64,000 bases of DNA from Hyphomicrobiales bacterium (GTDB lineage: Bacteria > Pseudomonadota > Alphaproteobacteria > Rhizobiales > Rhizobiaceae). The notes under the pieces were generated by a model that was not told where the DNA came from, did no database searches, and saw only the letters and a program-made list of their open reading frames with translations. This document shows positions 59,394 through 64,000 of the stretch, in pieces. Each line of letters begins with the position of its first letter. The first letter of the stretch is position 1. The stretch covers positions 372,001-436,000 of the forward strand of contig UCEU01000001.1 of the NCBI GenBank assembly GCA_900471485.1. Direction: 5' to 3'. Made by a program: the position numbers and the translations under genes.

Positions 59394-60473
59394 TCAAACA
59401 ATCTTCCCTCGGGCGGCAACCGGCCAGGCTTCAACAGACCGCAAGCCATTTCCGACGACAAACACCGTATCGACCATGTTGGTGACGACACATGCGTGGT
59501 TAGGTACAATCTGTACCACATCTCCGACCGAAAGGCCGATGGGGCCGGTGCTGACCAACCGGCCATGCTCCTCGGATAGCTGGTCGATGACGATGTCGTC
59601 GCGGCCTAGAACGTGCCCGTAGCCCGTGAGCCCCAAGAGATCGGATGTTAGGAGCTTCGACCCTGCATCAATCACAGCCCGGTTTTCGGTGGGCACTGAA
59701 ACGACGGTTGCCAAGACGCTGAGTGCGCAATTCTCCCACCCGCAGTCGCCGCGCGCGACAAGCGATCGATCGTTGTAGACGTAGGTTCCAGGGCGATACT
59801 CGGTAGTGACCGAGGCATCTGCTGCATGCATCATCGATGGGGTGCCACCCGATGTGATAACAGGCACTTCAATTCCCAGCGCCTCGATGCGCCTCTTTCC
59901 TTCCGTCATGAACGCCTCAACTGCCGCCGTCGCGCCGATCGGCGGATAAGTCATCAGTCCGCCGAACACGAGCCCGGGCGTACTGTGGATCCGGAGAGCG
60001 AGAGCCGTTGCAGCCTCGGCGGTGGGTACGCCGCAGCGGTTCGCGCCGGTATCGCATTCGACCATGACTGTAAGTGGCTCCGCCTCTGTTCGAAATGCAG
60101 CGGCTAGGCCGTCCACGACGGTCGCACTGTCGGCAACGACCGTCAGCTTCACCCTCCTCGCCAGAGCCTTGAGATGCTGAAGCTTCTCGGAACCCACGAT
60201 GTTATAGGTAATCAGGATGTCCTTGATCGCGCTGCTCCCCGCAGCCATCGCCTCGGCTTCCGATATCTTCTGACACGTGATCCCGATCGCGCCCGCGGCG
60301 ATCTGCAGTTCCGCGAGGGCCGGCAGCTTATGCGTCTTGATGTGCGGCCTTACACGCAGCGAATGACTGCTGGCATACTGCTGAAAACGCAGGATGTTCT
60401 CGTTTGCGATATCAAGATCAATAACGACGGCAGGTGTTTGTATGGCTGCGATGTCGTCGGGCGAAAAAGGCAT
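59394..60473 (-). CDS. PLP-dependent D-threonine aldolase/D-serine dehydratase-like enzyme
   Basis: A 359-residue fold-type III PLP enzyme. The N-terminal alanine-racemase-like barrel carries the PLP Lys in RPHIKTHKLPALAELQ (Lys46), a phosphate-binding region near VITSGGTPSMMHA, and a Tyr in YRPGTYVYND. The C-terminal barrel ends with VPNHACVVTN, whose His-x-Cys matches the zinc site of eukaryotic-type D-serine dehydratases; D-threonine aldolases use His-x-Asp. It is divergent from a polar amino-acid ABC transporter, so it probably degrades the imported D-hydroxyamino acid (inference). Confidence 0.85.
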   Translation of the reverse strand: MPFSPDDIAAIQTPAVVIDLDIANENILRFQQYASSHSLRVRPHIKTHKLPALAELQIAAGAIGITCQKISEAEAMAAGSSAIKDILITYNIVGSEKLQHLKALARRVKLTVVADSATVVDGLAAAFRTEAEPLTVMVECDTGANRCGVPTAEAATALALRIHSTPGLVFGGLMTYPPIGATAAVEAFMTEGKRRIEALGIEVPVITSGGTPSMMHAADASVTTEYRPGTYVYNDRSLVARGDCGWENCALSVLATVVSVPTENRAVIDAGSKLLTSDLLGLTGYGHVLGRDDIVIDQLSEEHGRLVSTGPIGLSVGDVVQIVPNHACVVTNMVDTVFVVGNGLRSVEAWPVAARGKIV

Positions 60474-60659
60474 GAGAATTCTCCGGTGAGGGTCAATGCG
60501 ACAGCGCGGTAATTCCGGCTATTTTGTCCGCTTCGCCAAAAGTCAGCCACCGCTATTGACAATCCATCGGCTATAGGCCTTGTTATGTCAATCCATTAAT
60601 ACAGACACATGTCCGGTATAGTGGATTATATAGAAACTCTCAGTTCTTAGGGGAACGAC

Positions 60660-61499
60660 ATGACTTTTCTTTCGCGCGTCGGCCTGATCGCTTTGGCCGC
60701 AACAACCATCCTTTCCAGCCCTGTGCTTGCTGCAGATAGCAAGCTTGATGAAGTGCTCGCACGCGGCCATCTCGTCATGGGAACCGGCAGCACCAATGCG
60801 CCGTGGCACTTCAAGAGCGCCGATGACAAGCTTCAGGGTTTCGACGTCGATATGGGGCACATCATCGCCAAGGCTCTCTTCGGCGATCCTGAGAAGGTGG
60901 AATACGTCAATCAGTCGTCGGACGCTCGCATCCCGAACATTACGACTGACAAAGTCGACATCACCTGCCAGTTCATGACCGTCACCGGCGAGCGCGCCCA
61001 GCAGATCGCCTTCACCATTCCGTACTATCGCGAAGGCGTTGGTCTTATGCTGAAGGCTGATGGCAAGTATGCTGATTACGCTGCGCTGAAGGCTGCCGGT
61101 TCTTCGGTGACCATCTCGGTGCTTCAGAACGTCTACGCAGAATCGATGGTTCACGCGGCGCTGCCGGAAGCGACAGTCGATCAGTACGATTCCGTCGACC
61201 TCATCTACCAAGCACTCGAATCTGGCCGTGCCGACGCGGTTGCCACCGACCAGTCGTCGCTCGCGTGGTACATGACCCAGAATCCAGGCAAATACAAGGA
61301 CGCCGGCTACGGCTGGAACCCCCAGACCTACGCATGCGGCGTAAAGCGCGGTGATCAGGATTGGCTGAACTTCGTGAACACCGCCCTTCACGAAGCCATG
61401 ACGGGCGTCGAATTTGATACGTACGCCAAGTCGTTCAAGACCTGGTTCGGCAAGGACCTGACGCCGCCGCAGATCGGCTTCCCCGTCGAATTCAAGTAA
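60660..61499 (+). CDS. Amino-acid ABC transporter, periplasmic binding protein (family 3)
   Basis: A 279-residue SBP_bac_3-type protein with a signal peptide (VGLIALAATTILSSPVLAADS). The mature start LDEVLARGHLVMGTGSTNAP and LQGFDVDMGHIIAKALFGD are typical, with ITCQFMTVTGERAQQIAFT carrying the Arg/Asp of the amino-acid site. AGGGGAACGAC precedes ATG 60660. It is the first gene of a five-gene unit, followed by two permeases, an ATPase and RidA, and is divergent from the PLP enzyme. Confidence 0.92.
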   Translation: MTFLSRVGLIALAATTILSSPVLAADSKLDEVLARGHLVMGTGSTNAPWHFKSADDKLQGFDVDMGHIIAKALFGDPEKVEYVNQSSDARIPNITTDKVDITCQFMTVTGERAQQIAFTIPYYREGVGLMLKADGKYADYAALKAAGSSVTISVLQNVYAESMVHAALPEATVDQYDSVDLIYQALESGRADAVATDQSSLAWYMTQNPGKYKDAGYGWNPQTYACGVKRGDQDWLNFVNTALHEAMTGVEFDTYAKSFKTWFGKDLTPPQIGFPVEFK

Positions 61500-61506
61500 C
61501 TGGCCC

Positions 61507-61533
61507 GAGGGAGCGGCTCATACCCGCTTCCTC
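61507..61533 (+). promoter_or_regulatory. Intercistronic hairpin after the binding-protein gene
   Basis: GAGGGAGCGG pairs with CCGCTTCCTC (one G-U pair) around a seven-base loop, 8 bp after the stop codon and without a T-run. Such hairpins commonly stabilise the binding-protein mRNA and lower expression of the permeases downstream. Confidence 0.55.
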
Positions 61534-62881: not shown

Positions 62882-62893
62882 GGAGGCCGCTCG

Positions 62894-63664
62894 ATGGCCA
62901 AGACAATGCTTGAAATCAGCGGCCTGCGGAAAACCTACGGCCAACATGAAGTTCTAAAGGGCGTCGACTGCGCCGTACAGGAAGGCGAGGTCATTTCGAT
63001 TATCGGCTCTTCCGGCTCGGGCAAGACCACGATGCTTCGCTGCGTCAACATGCTGGAGGAGTTCCAGGGCGGCACGATCAGCCTGGATGGTGAAGAGATC
63101 GGCTATCATGTCGAAGGAGCGACGCGGCGGCGCAAGGCTGAAAAGGAGATCGCCCGCCAGCGGGCGCTCACAGGCATGGCGTTCCAGCAGTTCAACCTCT
63201 TTCCACACATGACCGCCGCCCAGAACGTTATGCTCGGGCTCATCAAGGTCAAGAAGATGCAGAAGGCGGAGGCAAGAGAAATCGCCGAGCGCTGGCTCGA
63301 TCGCGTTGGCCTGTCGGCACGTGTCGACCACTACCCAGGCCAGCTTTCCGGCGGTCAACAGCAGCGCGTTGCAATCGCCAGAGCAATCGCGATGTCCCCG
63401 CGCCTTATGCTTTTCGATGAAGTGACATCTGCTCTCGACCCCGAGTTGGTGGGAGAGGTCCTGCAGGTCATCAAGGGTCTGGCGGCAGACGGCATGACCA
63501 TGCTGCTTGTCACGCACGAGATGCGTTTCGCTTACGAGGTATCCTCGCGTGTCATCTTCATGAATCAGGGCGTCATCTGCGAACAAGGCGACCCAAAGGA
63601 GATGTTCGTGCAGCCCAAGACCGAGCGTTTGGCTGAATTCCTGAAAACTTCCAGCTTCAACTGA
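62894..63664 (+). CDS. Polar amino-acid ABC transporter ATP-binding protein
   Basis: A 256-residue GlnQ/HisP-type ATPase with all motifs: Walker [10 protein letters not shown] (about residue 38), Q-loop in [14 protein letters not shown], signature LSGGQQQR, Walker [15 protein letters not shown] and switch His in [11 protein letters not shown] short insertion after the first strands ([18 protein letters not shown]) is common in this subfamily. GAGGAGG precedes ATG 62894. It energises the importer encoded upstream. Confidence 0.94.
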
Positions 63665-63694
63665 GCATAAAAACTACCAAAGAAAGTGAAAAGA

Positions 63695-64000
63695 ATGACG
63701 ATCAAGCGTTATGGTGCCGGCGAGACAGGCGCAGGCGGACAGCCCCTTCCCTTCGCGCGGGCCACAGAAGCAGGCGGCTGGCTGTATGTTTCCGGCCAGG
63801 TGCCGATGGAGAAGGGTGAGATCGTCGGTGGCGGAATCGTTGCCCAGACCAGAAAGGCGATCGAAAACCTGATTGCCATCCTCGACGAGGCAGGCTACGG
63901 CCTCGAAGATGTCGTACGTGTAGGCGTATGGCTCGACGATCCGCGCGATTTCTGGAGTTTCAACGGCGTCTACGCCGAGTACTTTGGTGCGAACCCGCCC
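63695..64000 (+). CDS. RidA-family reactive enamine/imine deaminase (cut by window edge)
   Basis: From ATG 63695, 102 codons are readable before the right edge. The sequence GGWLYVSGQVPMEKGEIVGG and TRKAIENLIAILDEAGYGLE, then DVVRVGVWLDDPRDFWSFNG is the RidA/YjgF/Rid fold. Family members hydrolyse 2-aminoacrylate and related enamines released by PLP enzymes. Located 30 bp after the amino-acid ABC ATPase and near a D-serine dehydratase-like gene, it most likely detoxifies that enzyme's product. The final 20-30 residues, with the catalytic Arg region, lie outside the window. The ribosome binding site is weak. Confidence 0.88.
   Translation, partial: MTIKRYGAGETGAGGQPLPFARATEAGGWLYVSGQVPMEKGEIVGGGIVAQTRKAIENLIAILDEAGYGLEDVVRVGVWLDDPRDFWSFNGVYAEYFGANPP

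Follow-up and report, generated by a model that had tools for sequence, protein, structure and literature searches.

The locus described here raises the question of which compound is handled by a gene set that couples an amino-acid-type importer to a D-hydroxyamino-acid lyase and a RidA-family protein. It is located in a 64,000-nucleotide stretch of contig UCEU01000001.1 of a Hyphomicrobiales bacterium (hereafter the window; numbers given without a locus label are window positions), in which the gene of a fold-type III pyridoxal phosphate (PLP) enzyme, the lyase, is divergent from an operon encoding a complete ATP-binding cassette (ABC) importer, RidA and an IclR regulator. A first-pass annotation had proposed that D-serine or D-threonine is taken up and dehydrated by this set and that RidA removes the 2-aminoacrylate formed. 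The conserved association of importer, enzyme and RidA and the superfamily of the enzyme stood up to further analysis, but the physiological substrate and the role given to RidA did not: with good confidence, though not with certainty, the locus can be read as a rhizobial module for the import and deamination of D-glucosaminate, in which the lyase belongs to another subfamily than OngC, the enzyme known for this reaction.

The open reading frame (ORF) list and the family searches agree with that annotation on the genes present. The lyase (359 aa) is encoded at 59394..60473 on the reverse strand. Separated from it by 186 bp, the forward strand carries, as assigned by family search, genes for a periplasmic substrate-binding protein (SBP) of the amino-acid-type SBP_bac_3 family (60660..61499), permease A (61554..62216), permease B (62222..62881) and the ATPase (62894..63664), followed by the RidA gene, which starts with an ATG at 63695 (an in-frame GTG occurs at 63686) and is truncated at 64000, where the window stops. 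The complete gene, read from the genome beyond the window (L004:5696-6085), encodes 129 aa and scores 95.4 bits with PF01042. The operon had been thought to end there, but an IclR ORF (L004:6092-6913) begins 6 bp past the RidA stop, outside the window, so that the order is SBP-permease-permease-ATPase-RidA-IclR.

Conservation of this set was assessed in 80 loci, the best 80 of 250 lyase-encoding stretches that were themselves obtained from 273 candidates of a genome scan. In 55 of them the genes of SBP and lyase diverge, and in 50 the set is complete (SBP, two permeases, ATPase, RidA and IclR); the SBP is present with the rest incomplete in five and is missing in 25, some loci being cut by contig ends. 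In Pseudochrobactrum-type loci, the place of the SBP_bac_3 importer is taken by an ABC importer whose binding protein is of family 5 (peptide type). The gene arrangement is more than chance, and the importer, the PLP enzyme and RidA are indeed conserved together.

Both domains of the lyase score above the curated cut-offs (PF01168, 76.7 vs 24.1 bits; PF14031, 81.4 vs 22 bits). K46, the presumed PLP lysine, is invariant in 18 aligned sequences, as are H326 and C328, which form an H326-A-C328 motif proposed to be the metal site. These features place the enzyme in the metal-dependent D-hydroxyamino-acid lyase superfamily, and the fold-type III family and His-x-Cys motif noted initially are thus confirmed. 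The motif had also been considered notable in a bacterium, yet Cys occupies this position in 134 of 137 aligned relatives, Asp being found only in L138 and L139 (annotated bhcC) and in L140 (annotated DSD1 family); the motif speaks for dehydration, but among bacteria it is commonplace. The best PDB matches are D-threonine aldolase 4v15 (1.3e-48), BhcC 6qkb (2.2e-47) and D-threonine aldolase 7dib. Of the NCBIfam models, BhcC NF045642 alone is matched, with 205.7 bits for a cut-off of 690, and the identity to BhcC is 37%. Both 4v15 and 6qkb have a His-x-Asp and a Q-H motif, whereas the window lyase has neither, and this, together with the low BhcC score, argues against membership in the D-threonine aldolase/BhcC group. 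The next match, D-threo-3-hydroxyaspartate dehydratase 3wqc of Delftia (7e-37), and the Zn-dependent D-serine dehydratase of chicken, 3anu (1.9e-22), share with the lyase the fold family, the His-x-Cys metal ligands and presumably the mechanism, although similarity is weaker and the genomic context differs. According to PMC4401734, the metal is bound by His and Asp in AxDTA and by His and Cys in both the chicken D-serine dehydratase (3anu) and the bacterial 3LLX, and the base of AxDTA is absent from serine dehydratase. In the column of the Q-H motif His of the aldolases (AxDTA, BhcC), which by counting in the alignment is taken as this base (His193), the window lyase has Ala and nine of the 137 relatives have His. 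In plasmid annotations, the lyase is labelled 'D-TA family'.

The tie between candidate substrates is broken by the neighbours found in relatives, which favour D-glucosaminate. The first is a KdgK-type gene, predicted to encode a kinase of 2-keto-3-deoxygluconate (KDG), which occurs within 11 kb of the lyase gene in 19 of the 80 loci. Six Pseudochrobactrum-type loci have it 5-8 bp behind the lyase gene and seven Sinorhizobium/Ensifer loci 1.4-8.8 kb downstream of it; in three Pseudolabrys-type loci it is convergent at ca. 0.65 kb, and in L069, L070 and L076 (Aminobacter/Mesorhizobium) it forms part of the importer operon, immediately following IclR. KdgK is also linked in L126-L129, including L127, from another family of the same class, in which a complete importer-RidA-IclR operon is divergent from a lyase 53% identical to that of the window and a kinase ORF lies 21 bp behind the lyase. 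In a sample of the phylum, 32 of 398 genomes (own included) have a relative at 1e-60, and in three of the sampled genomes, all of one genus and from the same class as the window, KdgK is within 7 kb of the lyase gene; L127 comes from one of these three. From 145 kinase matches among the 398 genomes, the chance of a KdgK neighbour within 10 kb was roughly estimated at below one percent for each genome, related loci not being independent; because of this low chance and of the occurrence of at least five gene arrangements, the linkage is judged to be real. For the kinases of L037, L044, L069, L126, L127 and L129, and for that of the own genome, the best NCBIfam model was KdgK NF052444, with 238-380 bits.

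The second neighbour is an Amidohydro_3 gene (PF07969) found near the lyase gene in seven of the 80 loci, six of the Pseudochrobactrum type plus L079. Its product is referred to here as OngB-like, or D-aminoacylase-type, because of 31-33% identity to the gene in the place of OngB in ong-like clusters. One Pseudochrobactrum-type locus (L051, JAHREI010000005.1) is on a contig titled Bacillus subtilis SK6B4; its kinase is 95% identical to that of L044 and the gene order is similar, and the assembly is probably mislabelled or contaminated.

The ong cluster of Pseudoalteromonas prydzensis ACAM 620 serves oxidative chitin use. According to PMC9537276, OngB deacetylates N-acetylglucosaminate; OngC, a fold-type III PLP enzyme, forms KDG and NH3 from D-glucosaminate (GlcN1A) and in vitro deaminates D-serine and D-threonine as well; KDG is then phosphorylated by KdgK, and the RidA protein OngD is required in vivo in a role left unexplained. 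The complete pathway was reported there in Gammaproteobacteria and one Achromobacter. Four ong-like clusters were found here in genomes of another class (L121-L124), as well as two further ong clusters in Pseudoalteromonas piscicida (L162) and Vibrio sp. THAF64 (L163). By BLAST, the latter two, which are unannotated records, contain an OngC-type lyase, RpiR, an amidohydrolase, RidA, a KdgK-type kinase and GH20, in orders that match the published cluster. The lyases of L121, L124-L126, L136, L162 and L163 form one clade with a support of 100 on a long branch, with the window lyase outside.

A link between these clusters and the window is provided by L126, from another class of the phylum and perhaps a Pseudomonas-like genome, in which an SBP-permease-permease-ATPase-RidA-IclR operon is continued by an OngC-type lyase and KdgK. 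When compared to the window, identities are 69% for the SBP, 64 and 58% for the permeases, 71% for the ATPase, 70% for RidA and 56% for IclR, while the L126 lyase lies in the above clade together with the ong lyases of P. piscicida (43%) and Vibrio (48%). Importer, RidA and regulator are therefore alike at the two loci but the lyase belongs to different subfamilies, and L126 further differs in having KdgK in the operon and the lyase in line instead of divergent. The L126 operon also presumably resembles a Pseudomonas glucosamine/glucosaminate ABC importer, AO353_21710-21725, known from fitness data. This system was not found in the accessible portion of PMC9007349, which reports on glucosamine via NagX.

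RidA points in the same direction. That of the window is 65% identical to the RidA of L162 and 63% to that of L163 (62-66% across ong-cluster RidAs), and 38, 30 and 29% identical to the three other RidAs of its own genome that align over at least 70 residues. RidAs of the Pseudoalteromonas and Vibrio ong clusters nest inside its clade, which has a support of 98; the split of this group from the own RidAs is weak (75), and in a second tree one own RidA falls on the other side. RidAs encoded beside the amidohydrolase genes of Pseudochrobactrum and L079 belong to another group, with 32-34% identity to that of the window. The Arg of the window PPARACVQ segment aligns with that of the PAR motif in 2dyy and 5yu2, and we take it to be the active-site Arg of Rid enamine/imine deaminases (E. 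coli R105). In L137 (G112:C94) and L136 (G300:C1), a RidA gene of the same clade adjoins an OngB-like amidohydrolase gene; no lyase of the window family was found in the L137 stretch.

The presence of KdgK in the module in several lineages, the OngB-like amidohydrolase, the L126 operon and the nesting of RidA all favour D-glucosaminate. The substrate, the reaction, the role of RidA and the IclR binding site are inferred, as follows. The importer would take up D-glucosaminate (2-amino-2-deoxy-D-gluconate), and perhaps also its C4 epimer D-galactosaminate; an amino-acid-type importer and a D-hydroxyamino-acid lyase suit such a cargo because D-glucosaminate is a D-alpha-amino-beta-hydroxy acid. 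The lyase, here proposed to be a D-glucosaminate dehydratase (ammonia-lyase), would remove the 3-hydroxyl in a metal- and PLP-dependent manner, with a metal held by H326 and C328 activating the 3-OH and PLP on K46 holding the amine. RidA would assist in hydrolysing the resulting enamine/imine, a step that yields KDG and NH3, after which KDG would be phosphorylated by KdgK and split by 2-keto-3-deoxy-6-phosphogluconate (KDPG) aldolase. The own genome has one KdgK-type kinase, on contig C8, and three KDPG-aldolase-family genes, which makes this onward route plausible. It also encodes three membrane pyrroloquinoline quinone (PQQ) dehydrogenases scoring over their family cut-off that, given the substrate range of such enzymes, could oxidise glucosamine outside the cell. 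Finally, the IclR protein may control both divergent promoters through a conserved palindrome (see below).

Several points weigh against D-glucosaminate. All the KdgK-type kinases score under the NF052444 cut-off of 400, KdgK is unlinked to the lyase in the own genome, and no KdgK gene occurs within 11 kb of the lyase gene in 61 of the 80 loci. The same is true within ca. 20 kb in the 51 of 150 genomes of the order (own included) that have a relative at 1e-80, the nearest KdgK in those genomes lying at 35-54 kb in nine of them, as compared by eye; relatives of at least 59% identity occur in nine of these 51 genomes besides the own one. In an unbiased survey of neighbours, KdgK ranked only seventh (13 loci), behind ABC-transporter clusters and one cluster resembling a spurious reading frame, and it was singled out after having been seen. 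The window lyase is outside the OngC clade, with 22-27% identity to OngC-group enzymes, in a tree that does not include the P. prydzensis OngC itself, so that function is transferred by context and not by orthology; the closest PDB relative of the L126 lyase, 3gwq, is moreover named D-serine deaminase. The own genome has no AA10 lytic polysaccharide monooxygenase (LPMO). Lastly, PMC4961836, on the counterpart importer of Sinorhizobium meliloti, names D-galactosamine and goes no further than to call the transporter a potential one.

In S. meliloti (CP050512), the lyase gene is located between a sulfate ABC operon and the counterpart importer. In two reports, SMb21133 is sulA (PMC6421345) and SMb21132/21133 are assigned to sulfate transport (PMC2912261). 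From this gene order, the lyase gene can be deduced to be SMb21134 and the importer genes SMb21135-SMb21138. In PMC4961836, Smb21135-Smb21138 is described as a potential D-galactosamine transporter, an amino-sugar link that fits a hexosaminate cargo; beyond that paper, the literature matches listed for the S. meliloti genes, for glucosaminate and for related names contained, in their accessible parts, no report of the module. D-galactosaminate, or another hexosaminate, might thus be the main substrate, with 2-keto-3-deoxygalactonate as product, and the kinases of L143 and L085 do score best with a KDG/KDGal kinase model. We nevertheless regard this as rather improbable, although it is partly counted in the D-glucosaminate reading so that the odds of the two overlap, as the kinases encoded in the importer operon or adjoining the lyase (L044, L069, L126, L127) score best with KdgK.

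Uptake and dehydration of D-serine or D-threonine, with RidA clearing 2-aminoacrylate or 2-aminocrotonate, is less likely still. Such a function would be in keeping with the His-x-Cys family of the lyase, with the Ala in the column of a base that serine dehydratase also lacks (PMC4401734), with the RidA linkage, with the name of 3gwq and with the acceptance of both amino acids by OngC itself. The pyruvate or 2-oxobutanoate formed would require no KDG kinase, however, and the KdgK-type kinase in the module of several lineages, the OngB-like neighbours and the similar operon combining an OngC-group enzyme with KdgK all point elsewhere, so that D-serine and D-threonine are probably not the physiological substrates. 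Growth or activity on either of them would not discriminate between the two readings because OngC deaminates both in vitro (PMC9537276). Least of all is a 3-hydroxyaspartate module to be expected, with the lyase as D-threo-3-hydroxyaspartate dehydratase or BhcC-like 3-hydroxyaspartate aldolase: BhcC is the sole NCBIfam match and 3wqc is among the PDB matches, but the BhcC score is far below the cut-off, the motif is His-x-Cys and not His-x-Asp, no bhcABD genes adjoin the lyase while two annotated bhcC genes do lie in bhcABCD, and the relatives with a 3wqc-like motif (L131, L133-L135) fall outside the window clade in a tree without a D-threo-3-hydroxyaspartate dehydratase, which makes this reading very improbable.

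Regulation of the D-glucosaminate module may be local. In the region between lyase and importer, a -35-like box facing the importer, TTGACA, is found at 60556..60561 on the forward strand and, by eye, at the corresponding position in the 14 relatives compared. It is followed by the conserved core GTCAATCC (60587..60594, forward strand) and by the palindrome AGACACATGTCC (60603..60614; consensus GGACANNTGTCC), a candidate IclR operator. The core is present in all 38 sequences retained after thinning the 56 sequences made up of the SBP-bearing loci and the window, with an information of 24 bits vs 8.1-8.6 for shuffles. In 66 of the 80 loci it lies no more than 400 bp upstream of the lyase, namely in 54 of the 55 that bear an SBP (the exception being L042) and in 12 of the 25 that do not (L028 being too short to test). 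The palindrome was found with at most two mismatches in 60 of 67 core-bearing sequences, in all 60 at an 8-bp offset, vs 0.7% for shuffles. The stretches of L126 and L127 lack the 8-base core, and their upstream regions match the palindrome with four mismatches. A longer promoter pattern occurs without mismatch at a single place in the own genome, at this locus; when one mismatch is allowed, it occurs at four places vs three for a reversed control. The natural reading of the region is a local IclR divergon with the palindrome as putative operator.

A broader and more tentative scenario, possible but short of probable, is that two distant lyase subfamilies, the OngC type and the 'D-TA' type, were exchanged around one conserved importer-RidA-IclR cassette. 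Of the catalytic partners in aminohexonate breakdown, RidA and not the lyase would then be the most constant, as a dedicated hydrolase of the six-carbon enamine/imine, and the M81 ('microcystinase-like') metallohydrolases encoded beside the lyase in sister clusters would be N-acyl-aminohexonate hydrolases feeding the lyase.

A paralogous second set exists on contig C24 of the own genome (L005:12293-16764), with a lyase 53% and a RidA 78% identical to those of the window. It also contains genes for an M81 metallopeptidase, a SnoaL-like protein and an RpiR-like regulator, and adjoins a sugar ABC importer and a GH20 gene. The combination of M81, lyase, RidA and RpiR is also seen in L128, L129, L141, L142 and L143; L143 is Phaeobacter gallaeciensis plasmid pP73_c, in which the order is RpiR, tripartite ATP-independent periplasmic (TRAP) importer, M81, lyase (60%), sugar kinase and RidA.

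Other neighbours were considered as parts of the module and left out. Behind the lyase and on the same strand, genes for an M20 amidohydrolase (57540-58739) and an Ldh_2 dehydrogenase (56519-57559) overlap by 20 bp; in the 80 loci, the former has no relative and the latter has relatives in L011 and L016 alone (32 and 37%). Among the genes that follow IclR, HisD-like and APH-like ones have no relatives in these loci, an alcohol dehydrogenase (ADH) gene has one (25%) and a short-chain dehydrogenase/reductase (SDR) gene several at 30-37%. Ectoine import was rejected since the EhuA, EhuB, EhuC and EhuD models all match under their cut-offs. Farther away, 48887-50722 and 52956-54770 are ORFs for large membrane proteins (611 and 604 aa) that look similar by eye, ca. 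2 kb apart and in opposite orientation.

Overall, the module shares with the P. prydzensis ong cluster (PMC9537276) a fold-type III PLP lyase and a RidA, in relatives also KdgK and an OngB-like amidohydrolase, and the proposed conversion of GlcN1A to KDG and NH3; with the P. piscicida and Vibrio clusters, it shares a RidA of the same clade. It differs in the lyase subfamily, in having an amino-acid-type ABC importer instead of the sodium/solute symporter (SSS) OngIT and IclR instead of MurR/RpiR, in the lack of adjoining OngA and OngB genes and in its alphaproteobacterial host devoid of AA10 LPMO. The module is ordinary in its parts and informative as a set, and most likely represents a variant of the oxidative amino-sugar-acid pathway. 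D-glucosaminate dehydratase activity has long been reported from Agrobacterium, and the present locus, if correctly read, would provide a rhizobial gene set for D-glucosaminate breakdown. The recently described oxidative chitin/amino-sugar-acid route would then include alphaproteobacteria, in which another lyase, importer and regulator take part. Rhizobial genes annotated as 'D-TA family PLP-dependent enzyme' could be named more precisely, and RidA, required in the published pathway for reasons not explained there, would gain a role that can be tested.

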